This document shows positions 815 to 10,908 of a stretch of 11,948 bases of DNA, one piece after another. Source of the stretch: Pseudomonas sp. (GTDB lineage Bacteria; Pseudomonadota; Gammaproteobacteria; Pseudomonadales; Pseudomonadaceae). The position numbers and the translations under genes were made by a program. The notes beneath the pieces are model-generated. The model was not told the origin of the DNA. It ran no database searches and saw only the letters and a list, made by a program, of their open reading frames with translations. The stretch spans positions 1 to 11,948 of the forward strand of contig DQGF01000600.1 in assembly GCA_003525045.1 (NCBI GenBank), read 5' to 3'. Every line of letters begins with the position of its first letter. The stretch's first letter is position 1.

Positions 815-2302
815 TCAGAAGCGCCAGATCACGTCGACGAACGCACGGTGCATGTACGAGTCGACACCCTTGCCGTAGGCATCGCCGGGCTTGAACACAC
901 CGCCACGCAAACGCACCAGGGCCGAAGGCTCATCGATCGATTGACTCAAGGCCGCGGGCAGCAGGCCCTGCTTGAAGTACTTGGTGACGACCACGTCCAT
1001 TTCCTGACCGAGGTCCTTGTTGCCATCTTCCAGCGGCAGGGACGTGCTGGAGAGCACGGCGCCGGTCACGTCATCGGTGTCGTTCTGCACGGCGTTGATG
1101 CCGTTGCTGCCGACCGGCTTGTTGCCGTCGACGCGCCAGAATTTGTGGTAGATCACGCTGGCGTCGTATTCGTCGTTGAGCATCCACGAGCCGAACAAAG
1201 TAGCGCTCTGCATGTTGTTCATTTCGCCGCGGAAGGCCTCGCCGAAACGGTGCACCCGCGAGCGGGTACCGGTGTAGTTCGAGCGGTTGCTTTCCAGGCC
1301 GTTCTGTTCGTAATCGGCACTGGCACGGGCATAGGCCGCACCGACTTGCCACTGCGGATCGAGGCGCAGACGCACGCCGAGGTCGGTGGCCCAACCATCA
1401 ACATCGCCACTGGTTTTGGCTTGTGCCGGCGCGGTGCCGTCGGCGTTCAGCGGGTTGGACTTGTCGCGGTCGCCGCTCATGCCAGTAACGCTGCCCCAGT
1501 AATTGACGGTATTGGTGTTGCGCCAGTTATAGGCATCGCTGTCGGCGGTGAGGCCGATCCAGCTGATGTCGCCGTTCTCTTTCTTGTCCAGGGAATCGGC
1601 GGCCACACCCGGCTGCGCGTAGTCCAGCTTGCCGTCATCGTGAGTGTGATGACCGCGAATGCCGACCCAGTTGCCGGGGTTCCACTGATACGCCGCATCG
1701 GCGTAAGCGTGCAGGCGATCCTTGTCGTTGGGCGCGAGTTCGGTGAGGTCGGTGCGGTATTCGCTGAAGCGTTCGGCAACACCGACGTTGGCGCGCAACA
1801 GGGTGGTATCGAAGGTCCAGTTCAGGGCTTCGATGTTGGTGTCGCGCCATTGGCCGTCGTCATTGCGCAGGCGTTGACGACCGAGCTTGAGCATCTCGCC
1901 GGGGTAGGGCGTAAGACCGCTGTAGCCGACCCAGAACTCACGCATCGCCAAGTAGTTTTTCTTGGTCTTGCGGTCACCGTTGGCGGTGGCCTGGGTGCCG
2001 TCGCTGTCGGACTGTTGCAGGGTGTCGGTCTCGATGATGTCGGTCGACGTCACGGCCTGACCCATGGCGTAGGCGCTCCACGCGCCGCTCTCGCCATAGA
2101 CCCATGGACGCAGGTCAAGACCGAGGCCGTTGACGTCGCCGCCGCTCTGCGTACCGAGGTCAGCATCGTCTTCGGACTGGGCAGTGATTTTCACATCGAG
2201 ACCGTAGTTCTTGCTTTCGGTCAAAGCTGCCAGGGTCGGGCACGACCACAACAAGGCGAATGACAGGCCGATACCGGCCTTAACGAATGGATTCAACTTC
2301 AT
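815..2302 (-). CDS. algE: AlgE, outer-membrane alginate export porin
   Basis: This 495-residue protein is close to the roughly 490 of P. aeruginosa AlgE. The signal peptide ends TLA-A (cleavage near residue 25). The mature part shows family blocks LDLRPWVYG (62-70), [12 protein letters not shown] followed by TNIEALNW (141-162), RFSEYRTDL (178-186), a later [23 protein letters not shown] block, and [10 protein letters not shown]. It ends in WRF, the terminal aromatic needed for assembly of outer-membrane beta-barrels. AlgE is an 18-strand monomeric barrel with an arginine-rich pore that passes the polyanion out of the cell; the many conserved arginines fit this. The start ATG overlaps the algK stop as ATGA (2299-2302), with GAGGAA 5 nt upstream inside algK, so translation is probably coupled to algK. 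That suits two proteins that work together in the outer membrane. Confidence 0.97.
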
Positions 2303-3807
2303 AGGGATTCCTCGCCGTCTTCTTCTTCCAGGGCATGCAGATCCAGCGTGTTCTGGCTCAAGGCACCACGAACGGCCTGTTCTTGTTTCAACAGGCGTTG
2401 GGCCTCGGCGAGCTGGGCAGGCGGCAATTGGGCTTCGAGTGTTTGCGCAAGCTCGGTGGCTTGCGGGGTGTTCTGGGCCTTGGCCAACTGGCTGAAGACA
2501 TAAGCGTTAAGCGGGTCGGGCTTGGTGCCCTTGCCTTGGGAGAACAATTGGGCGATGGCGAAGTCGGCGCTGTTCTGGCCGTTGCGCGCAGCGGTCAGCA
2601 AGTGATCCAGGGCTTTCTGCGAGTAAACCTTGCCCAGGTAGCCACGGCGGTAGATCTGGCCGAGGTAGTAATCGGCGGCCACTTCTCTGCCGACGGCTTT
2701 CTGGAAGTGTTCTTCGGCGACCTTGGCGTCGGCCGGGACCATTTTGCCTTCGTAGTAGAGCTTGCCCAGCAACAGTTCGGCGCGGGGCTGGTCGGCGGCG
2801 CGGCCGTTGTCCAGGTACTTCATCATGGTGTCGACATCGCCGAGTTCCGGGAAGTCGTAAAGCAATTGCGCCAGGCTGACCCAGGAAGCGGGGTAGCCGG
2901 GTGCGATGCCTTCAAGCAGTGACTGAGCGGTTTTCTCGTCGGTCGTGCCCAGGGTGGCATCGCCTAATACGCGAGCCACGCTGTCCACGCGCTGAGCGGA
3001 AACCGCACCGCGAGCCTGGGCAGCTTGCATCTGTTTGATCAGCTCGGCCTGTTGCTCAGGCGCAGCTTTTTTCTGATAGACCGTGGCCAGCTCGACGTAG
3101 CAGATGTCGGTGGTGTTCAACGCGGCCTTGCAGATGGTTTCCACTTCGTCCAGATGCTGGTCGTAAGTGCCTTGGGTGCGATACAGCAGCACTTGGGCCA
3201 GGCCCGCTTCCGGCTTGCCTTCGGCGCGCCACTGGCTGATCTGCTGCTGGGCGTTGACGTTGGGGAAGCTGTGGGGATATTGCAGGTACAGCATCGCCAA
3301 CGGAATCAGGGTGTTGCCTTCGCCATTGGCCGAGGCTTTTTTCAACAGGCCTTCGGCTTCCTGCTGTTCGGCTTCGGTGGAACCGGGTTTGGCCACCAGC
3401 AGACGACCCAGGCGCGCCTGAGCCCGCGGCGAGACGCTGGCCGCGGCACGGTAAGTCGCCTCGGCCTGTTTCATCTGCGCCGGGTCACGGCTGTCGACCT
3501 GGATATCGGCCAGGCCAACCTGGGCTTCGCTGTAGCCCAGGTCTGCCAGTTGCTTGTAGTTTTGCGCCGCCAGCGCGGTATCGCCGCGCTTGAGGGCTTC
3601 GTTGGCCAGACGCTGGTCGGGCAGGCCGGCGCAACCGGCCAGGCTCACAGCCAATGCAACGGCACACAGTGAGCCCATGTGGGAGCGGGCTTGCTCGCGG
3701 AGGCTGCGGCTCGGTGCATCAGACAAACCGAGTTGACCCCTTCGCGAGCAGGCTCGCTCCCACAGGGTTTGCGGTGTTGTGAGGATAGTTGGAGTCATCA
3801 CGGGCAT
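2299..3807 (-). CDS. algK: AlgK, outer-membrane TPR/Sel1 lipoprotein of the alginate secretion complex, with a REPIN-encoded N-terminal extension
   Basis: AlgK is a superhelical TPR-like lipoprotein that helps place AlgE in the outer membrane and links it to the periplasmic complex. A lipobox LAGC has the lipidated cysteine at residue 59; the next residues AG do not signal inner-membrane retention. Helical repeats follow, for example [28 protein letters not shown] and [20 protein letters not shown]. The product is 502 residues against about 475 in P. aeruginosa. Codons 15-44 are an 87-bp REPIN (3678-3764), exactly 29 codons, which accounts for the extra length. The start is uncertain. M1 (3807) has AGAGGA only 1 nt away, whereas GTG at 3801 (7 nt) or M4 at 3798 (10 nt) are better spaced. 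M44, just before the hydrophobic core, has no ribosome site and no basic residue ahead of the core. The gap to alg44 is 9 bp. Confidence 0.95.
3678..3764. repeat. REPIN (paired inverted REP elements) inside the algK coding sequence
   Basis: Two 26-nt arms, 3678-3703 and 3739-3764, face each other. The left arm begins TGTGGGAGCGGGCTTGCTCG, and 23 of 26 positions pair. The spacer is 35 nt. The core matches the REPIN at 9618-9707 and the REP family widespread between genes in fluorescent pseudomonads, which is mobilised by RAYT transposases. Here it lies wholly within algK, is read in frame, contains no stop on the algK strand, and adds an arginine-rich stretch just before the signal-peptide core. 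In the transcript it would fold into a strong hairpin close to the algK start. Confidence 0.93.
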
Positions 3808-3816
3808 GTCCTCTGT

Positions 3817-4986
3817 TTAAAGACCGGCGGCCATGGCTTTGTCGATCAGCCAGTTCAGGTTCGGACCACGGGTGCTGTTCACTTCAACCGGGCGACCGGC
3901 GAAAGCGCTGTCCAGTGGTTCGTCAGGCTTGATCTGCACGCGGATGTCGGACGACAGGTCGGCACTTTTCAGGCTGGTGCTGCTGACGATCTTGCCGCTG
4001 CGGGTTTTGTCTTCGCCGGCGATCTGGAAGCTGACGGTGCTGCCTGGCAGCACGTCGCCGAACTGGCGATAGGAGAAGCGCGCTTCAACGTTGGCTTCGC
4101 TGTTACGCGGCACCAGTTGGAAGATCACGTCGCCTTTGCTGGCGTACTGACCGTCGGCAACCAGTTGCTGCGCCACGGTGCAATCGCATGGCGAGGTCAG
4201 GGTGCCGGTCATCTGTTTGCCGAACAGTTCTTCAACCTTGGCCGGTTGCAATTGATCTTCGTCAAGATGGCCCTTGAGCACGTCGAGCATGCTGGTGCTG
4301 AAGGTCGCCAGTGGAGCGCCTTTGGCGGCAATGCCGTCGGGTTTGATCAGGCTCTGCACAGTACCGTCGCGCGGCATGGTGATGTTCATGCCCGCCACGC
4401 TGACCAGACCGGCCTGGGCGTGGCTGACGAAGTACATGCCGTACACCGACTTGAAGATGAAACCGAAGGCCGTCAGGCCGACGAGGAAAATCGCCAGGCT
4501 GAAGGTCACCGCACGCAGACGACCGAACGGAGTCATGCCGTGGCCGCCATCCTTGACCTTGCGCGCCTTGGTGAAGTTGTCGCGCTGCAGGGTCGCCAAC
4601 ACTTCACCCATGCTGACGATGTCGCCGGCCAGGTGAGAGGTGATCAGGTGGCGCAGGGTGGAGATGTCTTGCGGTTCCAGGTTCTGGAACTGGCAACCGG
4701 CACGCCCGGTCTGGCGATCGAAGGAGCGTACTTGCAGCTCCACGTCCATGGCCAGGCCGAGGTTATCGATGACAAATTGCAGGCGAGCCTTGTAGACCTC
4801 ACCGATCTTGAGTGGCAACTGACCGGCGTTGAAGGCCAGGCCGCCAGCGGAGAGGTCGATGACTCGAGCTTCTACCGGGGTCCGGTCAGGACCGAAGAAG
4901 CGCAGCTTGGCCGGGATTTTCACTCGGGCGTGTTGGCGCTGGGCTTCTGACTCATGCACTACGTTGGCGTTGACGGCGGTATTCAT
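3817..4986 (-). CDS. alg44: Alg44, PilZ-domain c-di-GMP receptor and co-polymerase for alginate
   Basis: The 389-residue protein has an N-terminal cytoplasmic PilZ domain with both parts of the c-di-GMP signature: R17-xxx-R21 and D44-L-S46-AGG. These residue numbers match those known to matter in P. aeruginosa Alg44. A single membrane helix lies at about 161-179. It is followed by a periplasmic domain of the HlyD/membrane-fusion type (about 190-389), including the block GTVQSLIKPDG and the Cys-containing SPCDCTV at 265-271. Alg44 partners with Alg8 in the inner membrane, and c-di-GMP binding switches polymerisation on. The start ATG at 4984-4986 has AGGA (4997-5000) 10 nt upstream. The gap to the alg8 stop is 35 bp and to algK 9 bp, so all are probably co-transcribed. 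No key residue is missing. Confidence 0.97.
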   Translation of the reverse strand: MNTAVNANVVHESEAQRQHARVKIPAKLRFFGPDRTPVEARVIDLSAGGLAFNAGQLPLKIGEVYKARLQFVIDNLGLAMDVELQVRSFDRQTGRAGCQFQNLEPQDISTLRHLITSHLAGDIVSMGEVLATLQRDNFTKARKVKDGGHGMTPFGRLRAVTFSLAIFLVGLTAFGFIFKSVYGMYFVSHAQAGLVSVAGMNITMPRDGTVQSLIKPDGIAAKGAPLATFSTSMLDVLKGHLDEDQLQPAKVEELFGKQMTGTLTSPCDCTVAQQLVADGQYASKGDVIFQLVPRNSEANVEARFSYRQFGDVLPGSTVSFQIAGEDKTRSGKIVSSTSLKSADLSSDIRVQIKPDEPLDSAFAGRPVEVNSTRGPNLNWLIDKAMAAGL

Positions 4987-6525: not shown

Positions 6526-6591
6526 GCAAGCCCCAAGCTTCAAGCTCCAAGTGAGGAGCTTTAAACTTGCGGCTTGGAGCTTGGAGCTTGC
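6526..6591. repeat. Inverted array of heptamer-like repeats between algD and alg8
   Basis: Left arm 6526-6551 and right arm 6566-6591 (26 nt each) match at 22 positions when one is reverse-complemented, around a 14-nt loop. Each arm is itself made of near-copies of CAAGCTC/CAAGCTT in 7-nt steps (for example CAAGCTT, CAAGCTC; CTTGGAG, CTTGGAG). In the operon transcript the stem would begin 7 nt after the algD stop codon and end 22 nt before the alg8 start. There is no U-run after the stem, so it is not a classic terminator. It could stabilise the algD end of the message or reduce read-through into alg8. Confidence 0.8.
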
Positions 6592-6598
6592 GGCTGCT

Positions 6599-9575: not shown

Positions 9576-9617
9576 GCTATCGAGGTAATAGGTGATCGAT
9601 GGCTATGCACTATCCCC

Positions 9618-9707
9618 TGTGGGAGCGGGCTTGCTCGCGAATGCGGTGTGTCAGTTACCGATGATGCCGACTGACACACCGCATTCGCGAGCAAGCCCGC
9701 TCCCACA
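9618..9707. repeat. REPIN with perfect 38-bp arms between yaaA and the deacetylase-like gene
   Basis: Left arm 9618-9655 and right arm 9670-9707 are exact reverse complements over 38 nt around a 14-nt loop. The outer part is the REP core TGTGGGAGCGGGCTTGCTCG, shared with the element inside algK; the inner part (ATGCGGTGTGTCAGT and its complement) extends the stem. It sits between divergent promoters, where such elements are usual. Open frames run through it on both strands, giving REP-type peptides such as GAGLLANAVCQ; these are not genes. Confidence 0.95.
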
Positions 9708-9746
9708 AGGGTTCGGTGCTGCTGCGGGAATCCCGGCCGCATCAGC

Positions 9747-9752
9747 TATAGT
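9747..9752 (+). promoter_or_regulatory. Candidate -10 element for the deacetylase-like gene
   Basis: TATAGT (5 of 6) lies 31 nt before the chosen start codon, leaving room for a leader of about 25 nt with the GGAGA ribosome site. No good -35 is present at 16 to 18 bp, so support is weak. Confidence 0.22.
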
Positions 9753-9783
9753 GCCGCCCGGGTTTTGTTATGGAGACATCCCA

Positions 9784-10908
9784 TTGCGTATCGCTTTTCT
9801 ATTCTCGGCCTGGCTCTTGAGTTTCGCTGCCCTGGCGGCACCGGGCGAAGTGGCGACGCTGGATCGTAGTACCTGGCCCGAACAGCTTGGCAACCCGACC
9901 CTATTCGACGTCGCCTCGCGGGCCGAAATCCTGATGTTCGCCCGCGTCCTGCTGGCCAGCGAATCCCTGGATGAAAGGGGTCTTGCCCAGCGCCTGGGCC
10001 TGCGCACGATCAATCTGGCGTCGGTCAACAACCTGCGTCAGCGCCTGTGGCAGCGTCTGCTGAGCAACTACAACTTTGCCCAGCTAAGCTGCGATCAGGA
10101 TGCCTCCTTCTGTTTCCTGATCGAGGACATGGACACCTTGCGCCAGCAAGCGGCCAAGTTTCAGGTCGGTGACGACAGCTACTACATCAAGTGGGCCGAG
10201 CCGAGTCGACTGTTCCATGCCCGGTACCTGGACGAGCAATTGCGCAAGGCCGCGCTGTTTCCGCAAACCAGTAGCGAAGTCGATCGATTTGGCGACTATG
10301 AGCGCAACGGCGACACGATGAATGACCGGCTGTTTCTGCTGACCTTCGACAGCGCCGCCAATGCCACGCCGGACAACACCGCCTGGGTGACCGAGTACCT
10401 GCGCAAGTCGAACCTGAGCGGCACATTCTTCGTCCTCGGCAAGGACATCCAGGCGCGTCTGGCTGAACGTTCAGTCGCCAGCCTGCAAGCGACTTATTCA
10501 ACGCACTGTATTGGCGTGCAAGGCTGGGAGTTCCGTTCCCACAGCCATTGGCAGGACTGGCAGGACTCGGTTCGCCGCAGCGTCGAACTGGTCAAAGGCA
10601 AACTGCCGGAGAATTACGTGCCGCTGTTCCGTCCACCCGACGGTCAACGTCGTTCGGACGCTGAAATTTTCTTCAACGCCCAGGGCTTGCAAGTAGCGCT
10701 GTGGGACATCGATGCCCAGGATGGCGCAGGCAAGCTCAAGCCCGACCAGAGCGCGCAACGGGTGTTGACCCTGATGCTGCTGTGGCGTCACGGGGTGATC
10801 AACTTCAACGTGAAGCAGGAGGGGGTGAAAACGGCGGTGCCCTGGCTCGTCACGCAAACGGCGCAAAGCGGGATCGGTTGGGAAGACTGTCAGGACGGGT
10901 TTCGCTGA
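9784..10908 (+). CDS. Secreted NodB-like polysaccharide deacetylase relative with degenerate active site
   Basis: I start at TTG 9784-9786, with GGAGA (9772-9776) 7 nt upstream; it gives a clean signal peptide (MRIAFLFSAWLLSFAALA, cleavage near residue 18-19) and 374 residues. Starting further upstream would translate the REPIN. Residues 30-180 are not recognised. From about 183 the NodB fold can be followed: LLTFDS (185-190), GTFFVLG (213-219), GWEFRSHSHW (247-256), LFRPPDG (281-287), ALWDIDAQD (305-313), HGVINFNV (336-343). Compared with canonical deacetylases, the metal Asp of TFDD is Ser190, the second His of H-xxx-H is Gln257 (His255 lies nearby), RPPYG is RPPDG, and the final catalytic His is absent. 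It is therefore either inactive, binding rather than cutting, or of altered chemistry. The substrate is unknown; proximity to alginate genes is suggestive only, and alginate deacetylation is not part of that operon. Confidence 0.8.
   Translation: MRIAFLFSAWLLSFAALAAPGEVATLDRSTWPEQLGNPTLFDVASRAEILMFARVLLASESLDERGLAQRLGLRTINLASVNNLRQRLWQRLLSNYNFAQLSCDQDASFCFLIEDMDTLRQQAAKFQVGDDSYYIKWAEPSRLFHARYLDEQLRKAALFPQTSSEVDRFGDYERNGDTMNDRLFLLTFDSAANATPDNTAWVTEYLRKSNLSGTFFVLGKDIQARLAERSVASLQATYSTHCIGVQGWEFRSHSHWQDWQDSVRRSVELVKGKLPENYVPLFRPPDGQRRSDAEIFFNAQGLQVALWDIDAQDGAGKLKPDQSAQRVLTLMLLWRHGVINFNVKQEGVKTAVPWLVTQTAQSGIGWEDCQDGFR

Follow-up and report, generated by a model that had tools for sequence, protein, structure and literature searches.

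An in-frame REPIN in the signal-peptide region of AlgK across many species of Pseudomonas

REPINs, in-frame palindromic elements and REPs lying within genes have all been described before. The REPINs of Pseudomonas fluorescens are nearly all extragenic, with 14 of the 1,067 occurrences of the three commonest SBW25 16-mers overlapping genes in the account of Bertels and Rainey (2011, PMC3116915), and the model of REPIN persistence outlined in PMC8049555 assumes that a copy which enters a gene destroys that gene. The Rickettsia palindromic elements (RPEs; Ogata 2000, 2002, as described in PMC2229807 and PMC10969869) are found in frame in protein genes, and further in-frame examples are known outside Rickettsia. 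A YPAL/RU-2 MITE has been proposed to form part of a Yersinia signal peptide, that of YPO1552 (PMC2229807). According to a study of 2013 (PMC3733652), intragenic GTAG/CGTC REPs of several species are read as 20–30 residues within ORFs, many of them N-terminal, and most of the N-terminal REPs of P. putida are judged there not to be coding. The terms "alginate" and "signal peptide" are absent from the main text of PMC3733652. A literature search found no paper on a REP in algK, none on repeated insertion into one signal peptide throughout a genus, and none on an in-gene REPIN which follows the REP type of its genome.

The element described here, which lies in algK of a Pseudomonas sp., shares with the REPINs of P. 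fluorescens, as these are presented in PMC3116915, an inverted pair of REPs, a spacer, a hairpin, many copies and sequence subtypes; unlike them it sits in frame within a conserved gene and occupies one and the same position in many species. Like the RPEs it is short, palindromic and in frame within a conserved protein. The RPEs, as characterized in the articles cited above, belong to another family and another host and occur in many genes, whereas here one signal peptide appears to have been hit in many lineages, the insert follows the element population of the genome, and the arms are Pseudomonas REPs. With the YPAL/RU-2 case it has in common a mobile element proposed to contribute residues to a signal peptide, but for YPO1552 a new gene was proposed (PMC2229807), whereas in algK a conserved lipoprotein is altered in many species. 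Finally, in contrast to the verdict of PMC3733652 on the N-terminal REPs of P. putida, the retention of the reading frame in algK argues for translation.

By the window we mean the whole stretch of DNA that was analysed, 11,948 nucleotides of contig DQGF01000600.1. On its reverse strand an open frame of 502 codons extends from an ATG at 3807 (2299–3807). Its product is recognized by the NCBIfam model AlgK_TPR_lipo (804.8 bits against a curated cut-off of 700, residues 46–490), and the AlgK structure, PDB 3e4b, matches its residues 60–502. The start region ATG CCC GTG occupies 3799–3807 of the same strand, preceded by GAGG at 3813–3810; counted from the GTG at 3801–3799, which is the more conserved start, algK has 500 codons. 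The lipobox LAGC is encoded at 3631–3642 (reverse strand) and its predicted lipidated cysteine is codon 59. The upstream gene (3817–4986, reverse strand), which from operon order is presumably alg44, gave only adaptor-like NCBIfam matches below their cut-offs.

In the stretch from the algK start to the lipobox there is, in frame, an 85-nt REPIN core (GTGGGAGC..GCTCCCAC, 3679–3763, reverse strand) which extends from the final base of codon 15 through codon 43. An earlier note on this DNA had reported a complete REPIN translated within the AlgK signal region at 3678–3764; the inverted arms within the open frame bear this out, while the core proved to be one base shorter on each side. On the coding strand the two inverted 21-nt REP arms read GTGGGAGCGAGCCTGCTCGCG and CGCGAGCAAGCCCGCTCCCAC. 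The first, on the side of the start codon (3743–3763, reverse strand), is GTGGGAGCGAGCCTGCTCGCG, belongs to type GACTC, encodes (L)WERACSR and is present in 195 exact copies in the window's genome. The second (3679–3699, reverse strand) is the reverse complement of GTGGGAGCGGGCTTGCTCGCG, belongs to type GGTTC and encodes REQARSH; GTGGGAGCGGGCTTGCTCGCG has 163 exact copies. These arms represent the two commonest in that genome of the four REP types tested, and a pattern scan with a longer spacer gave 62 forward REPIN matches in it. The loop between them (3700–3742, reverse strand) contains the motif GGTTTGTCTGATGCACCG at 3712–3729.

The algK element thus combines two inverted REPs, a short spacer and a hairpin, and both of its arm types are many-copy in the window's genome. 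It is not extragenic, lying inside algK and in frame. We retain the name REPIN because extragenic location is the usual place of these elements and not a part of their structure.

Two other repeats were seen in the window. A second REPIN at 9614–9711, with arms 98% complementary over 42 nt, is situated in the 5' open extension of ORF 9592–10908, a polysaccharide deacetylase (Pfam PF01522); it is probably untranslated, since a TTG at 9784 behind GGAGAC is the likelier start, and so forms a contrast to algK within the same window. Another type of repeat, of the AAGCTTCAAGCT kind, is represented by an inverted repeat of 23 nt (91%) at 6529–6595, where what are presumably an alg8-like and an algD-like gene adjoin. 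Elsewhere, REPINs were noticed in frame in two further genes. One (L266 1501–1587, G208:C1:578504-578590) falls within the part of a CobN protein that Pfam matches (PF02514, 1200 bits), the locus having 993 open codons, and a short one (L233 1501–1575, G049:C1:1711708-1711782) is located between the CT_A_B and CT_C_D domains of a biotin-dependent carboxyltransferase.

The AlgK of the window was searched against 398 genomes of the genus and 150 listed matches were used, one of which was not parsed; among the matches listed the alignment was full-length in many and began at about residue 49 in others. From 230 algK loci gathered (L220 unparsed), the merging of identical alleles left 197 distinct ones, and both REP arms occur at one place and in one phase in 148 of these. 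Three (L057, L079, L147) have forward-reverse arms with the inner element in another phase, a second REPIN being nested in the first; four have arms in the reverse order, three only a second arm in another phase, and 16 others a single arm or extra arms. A motif search detected no REP arm in 23 alleles, four of which (L129, L137, L140, L142) nevertheless have long signals. By genome, at least one REP arm is present in 128 of the 149 parsed and the in-place pair in 105. Carriers include P. lini, P. gregormendelii, P. migulae, P. moorei, P. jessenii, P. siliginis and P. thivervalensis; P. mandelii OWC5 and P. frederiksbergensis AS1 are without the insert. Judged by this distribution the algK insert is old and widespread in Pseudomonas and not a local oddity. 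A recent, strain-specific insertion is rejected, the insert being common to many species.

The alignment of algK 5' ends across pseudomonads, which the earlier note had suggested, brought to light REPIN-free alleles such as L121. This natural short allele lacks 96 nt, or 32 codons, relative to the window (3670–3765, reverse strand). The proposal that the REPIN accounts for the extra length of AlgK is upheld, and the figure of 473 residues given for the protein after its removal is nearly right. The sequence CTGTG is repeated at both edges of the missing segment (3765–3761 and 3669–3665), so that L121 could be an unoccupied site or the product of a deletion from one repeat to the other.

Eight insert-free alleles (L096, L097, L099, L104, L113, L123, L125, L126) share the signal MPVTSPLRILPVPLTLAMAIALAGC, or SPIR, in what are apparently separate parts of the algK tree; this could be an ancestral form or a transferred haplotype. 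When the 5' regions of L001–L230 were compared by eye, pre-insert flank, loop and post-insert flank were seen to combine in many ways between strains, and the mosaic looks as if recombination shuffles the signal peptide in modules.

All 148 in-place inserts, representing 130 distinct sequences, are in frame and free of stop codons from the GTG to the lipobox cysteine. Their core lengths are 67 (1 allele), 85 (116), 88 (23) and 100 nt (8), every one of which is 1 mod 3. As a null we took 41 other genomic REPINs in their 82 orientations, a convenience sample including 15 short elements; 29 orientations were open in the algK phase, 54 had a fitting length and 16 had both, and for the 26 long elements alone 13 of 52 orientations were both open and of fitting length. 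Parsimony over the 104 distinct 85-nt inserts placed 4 stop steps against 22.6 expected, all four within multiply changed codons and none in a tip. The insert is apparently translated as part of the AlgK signal peptide, and it is by this evidence of the reading frame that the earlier claim of translation stands.

The choice of start codon bears on this point. The GAGG lies only two bases before the ATG at 3807, and a GTG two codons further on is better spaced from such a sequence. This GTG is kept in 148/148 in-place insert alleles and the ATG in 145; in the insert-free alleles L105 and L118 the ATG of the start motif is out of frame and the PV codons are in frame. Because of its spacing, its full retention and the displaced ATG of L105 and L118, the GTG is probably the true start of algK, and the finding is unchanged by the choice. 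Translation might instead begin downstream, for example at M44, so that the REPIN would be a leader and the long frame an annotation artefact, an explanation that PMC3733652 put forward for the majority of the N-terminal REPs in P. putida. An ATG does follow the insert directly in 71 of the 148 alleles, and some in-frame ATG, GTG or TTG occurs within or after the insert, ahead of the hydrophobic core, in 141. As a general rule, however, a start at M44 is rejected by these codon counts: the ATG is wanting in the other alleles, in 56 there is no in-frame ATG at all from the beginning of the insert to the core, and seven have none of the three codons. Since an in-frame GTG is present upstream of every insert, no insert contains a stop or a frameshift, and native and REPIN residues share a constraint on charge (see below), we regard a downstream start as very unlikely; an internal start is possible allele by allele in the 141 with a candidate codon.

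The region before the hydrophobic core carries a net charge of +1 to +6 in all 148 in-place alleles, and the last 12 signal residues have a mean hydropathy of 2.25. A positive n-region, a hydrophobic core and a lipobox LAGC ending in Cys are together what is expected of a type II signal peptide. It had been suggested that the native flanks contain no Lys or Arg and that the REPIN now supplies the positive n-region. Both statements hold for the window allele but for only 52 of the 148 in-place alleles, the number in which the native flank is not net positive; in the other 96 it is already net positive by itself. The REPIN in turn is not net positive in 21, and never are both so (Fisher p 9e-5); native and REPIN charge are correlated at r = -0.64 (permutation p < 1e-4, holding on the 130 unique inserts), these tests taking no account of relatedness. 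The two charges compensate each other, and the idea is valid for the window allele, with the REPIN as one of two interchangeable sources. Lipoproteins lose their signal peptide before the lipidated cysteine. As the match to 3e4b begins at residue 60, directly after that cysteine, we infer that the insert would be lost together with the signal peptide.

A further 50 loci came from a search with an AlgK of putida type; they were its 30 best matches and 20 chosen from lower in the list. The enlarged set comprised 243 distinct alleles, reduced to 233 by leaving out 10 without a recognised start pattern. None of the 233 is net negative and five have zero charge. The signal peptide exceeds 32 residues in 202 and is shorter in 31. 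An inverted repeat of at least 14 (with at most two mismatches) is found in 193 of the 202 long signals, against 7 of 202 after codon shuffling, and in none of the 31 short ones, which have little room for one. REP arms occur in all three reading phases and in both orders; by a simple motif search, which recovers fewer complete pairs than the in-place search, the arrangements (F forward, R reverse, digit for phase) were F1R0 in 121 alleles, F0R1 and R1F0 in 6 each, R0F2 and F2R0 in 5 each, F0R0 in 4, F0R2 in 3, plus others. In L137, L140 and L142 the repeat in frame is of quite another kind, GCNGCTGCCGCAGGCTGCGA or a close variant of it. The GCNGCTGCCGCAGGCTGCGA-type repeat has 143, 277 and 167 copies in the respective genomes (G061, G351, G325), and of eleven other genomes searched three have 2–4 copies and eight 0–1. 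L129 resembles these three, with only one exact copy of the repeat in its genome, G073. The syringae-type AlgK proteins P0105 and P0112 and that of P. capsici, P0135, are short and have no stretch of this kind.

Since the n-region of other lineages holds REPs of other phases, orders and families, the insertion of REPs into it seems to be recurrent. As substitution does not change phase, at least five independent landings may be postulated; paired indels could also change phase, and the number is to be read accordingly.

What the insert encodes is another matter. In the 104 distinct 85-nt inserts out of the 130 distinct in-place ones, 387 parsimony changes were counted (N 267, S 116), an omega-like ratio of 0.93, spread evenly over the codon positions (132/124/131). 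The ratio for the loop alone is 1.11, and for mature AlgK in the same strains 0.10. The REPIN-encoded peptide is not conserved; mature algK is under purifying selection, and the frame of the insert is kept. One might have supposed that an Arg-rich insert kept over so many species is a domesticated functional peptide, such as an AlgK targeting sequence. That is scarcely credible and we reject it, amino-acid change being neutral here by both ratios and by codon position; moreover other lineages have other REP peptides at that spot.

The DNA of the arms behaves differently from the loop. Change was mapped on a tree of the mature gene, which may itself carry effects of recombination, for the 116 of 148 alleles with 85-nt inserts: 16 of 21 positions of the first arm had at most two changes and 14 of 21 of the second at most three, against means of 14.5 at loop sites and 13.4 at the 108 four-fold sites of the mature gene. 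Eight third-codon sites of the arms at which silent change is possible, outside the REP-variable sites, had 0, 0, 0, 3, 0, 0, 2 and 0 changes. The changes in the arms cluster at positions 8, 9, 12, 16 and 17 and their mirror images, with two further variable sites in the second arm. As DNA the arms are conserved even at silent positions, and most of their variation is at sites that also differ among genomic REPs.

Such conservation at silent positions would also be expected if the REPIN were kept as an RNA hairpin tuning AlgK translation or mRNA decay in the alginate operon, its coding being incidental. The fold is indeed strong, as the earlier note had predicted for the mRNA near the algK start: the RNA of 3655–3830 has -71.3 kcal/mol (z -3.45) and folds better than 200 of 200 shuffles, and all 21 pairs between the arms are Watson-Crick in 58 of the 116 85-nt inserts. 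Yet the 31 short-signal alleles among the 233 do without any insert, L127, L132 and L144 manage with half a REPIN, and the changes fall mostly at REP-variable positions, whereas plain pairing would permit them anywhere in the stem, which makes a pure compensatory RNA stem less likely. The element also starts about 42 nt past the ATG, outside the footprint of an initiating ribosome. We consider a retained regulatory hairpin quite unlikely.

The relation of the arms to the rest of the genome was examined by counting four exact REP types in 80 of the 105 eligible insert-bearing genomes. Fifty-nine could be scored, having both algK arms of a single one of these types, and 21 with mixed or other arms were left out. 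In 50 of the 59 the type found at algK outnumbers each of the other three in the genome, with 17.5 expected and 0 of 20,000 permutations reaching this value; the fit is weakest for TGTCA (8/15). Relatedness inflates the figure of 50/59, and we therefore used independent pairs. For GGTTC 6–7 of 8 pairs went the same way and none the opposite (p 0.016–0.031), and for GACTC 5–7 of 8, again with none opposite (median p 0.016); GATTC gave 4–5 of 5 and TGTCA 2–4 of 5, too few pairs for significance. The four tests are not independent of one another. The link between arm type and genome partly survives phylogenetic pairing.

Vertical inheritance accounts for part of the match. That common descent alone would explain it, with no ongoing exchange, might be argued from those relatives which share both type and ancestry and from a pair test significant for only two of the four types. 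We think this unlikely. Against it are at least 22 changes of algK arm type on the tree of the 59 genomes and the want of any pair with the traits opposed for any of the four types. In addition, differences were seen in 133 arm comparisons within 95 close, overlapping and non-independent pairs of alleles (<4.5% divergence). In 99 of these comparisons the differences are confined to REP-variable sites, with a single site involved in 48 cases and four or five sites at once in 22.

The loops are more varied. The motif GGTTTGTCTGATGCACCG has 0–3 copies per genome, which means that it is not a common genomic loop, and it is present at algK in 12 of the 80 genomes, the window's and 11 more. Loops reading GLS[DE]xP are found in 49 of 148 inserts, together with five different types of first arm, a hint that the arms may be overwritten and the loop left as it was. 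The exact motif of the window is associated with a GACTC first arm in 18 of 21 inserts, and as a general rule a fixed loop with switching arms is only partly borne out. Other alleles have quite different loops, and in these the whole element may have been replaced.

We consider it probable that the cleaved n-region of AlgK is a tolerant landing site whose resident REPIN is homogenised with the REPIN population of the genome. A REPIN, presumably mobilised by a RAYT, would have landed in the n-region of the signal peptide and stayed because the stretch, once translated, serves a single act of export before lipoprotein signal peptidase cuts it off, both translation in the cell and cleavage with the signal peptide being presumed. 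Almost any in-frame, net-positive filler would be tolerated there, and selection would guard the open frame and the positive n-region, not the peptide sequence. The algK element would still belong to the REPIN population of its genome, and its arms would presumably be overwritten, by gene conversion or re-insertion, towards the REP type dominant in each genome. The same n-region would also have been hit independently by REPs of other phases, orders and families. A stronger form of this idea, to which we give an even chance, is that the n-region is a standing REPIN landing site in which selfish DNA continuously rewrites the signal peptide by concerted evolution, the host demanding only frame and positive charge.

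The finding points to a part of a gene that is able to absorb short mobile elements, one which is translated, used and thrown away. It offers a natural experiment, run in many species, on what a bacterial n-region needs: it must be in frame and net positive and is otherwise nearly free. It also presents a REPIN inside a gene, with arms that appear to track the genomic population, so that the uniformity of REPINs, whether by gene conversion or by transposition, becomes testable at one fixed and selectable locus. Lastly, it suggests that N-terminal REPs in Pseudomonas genes are not always the product of misannotation.
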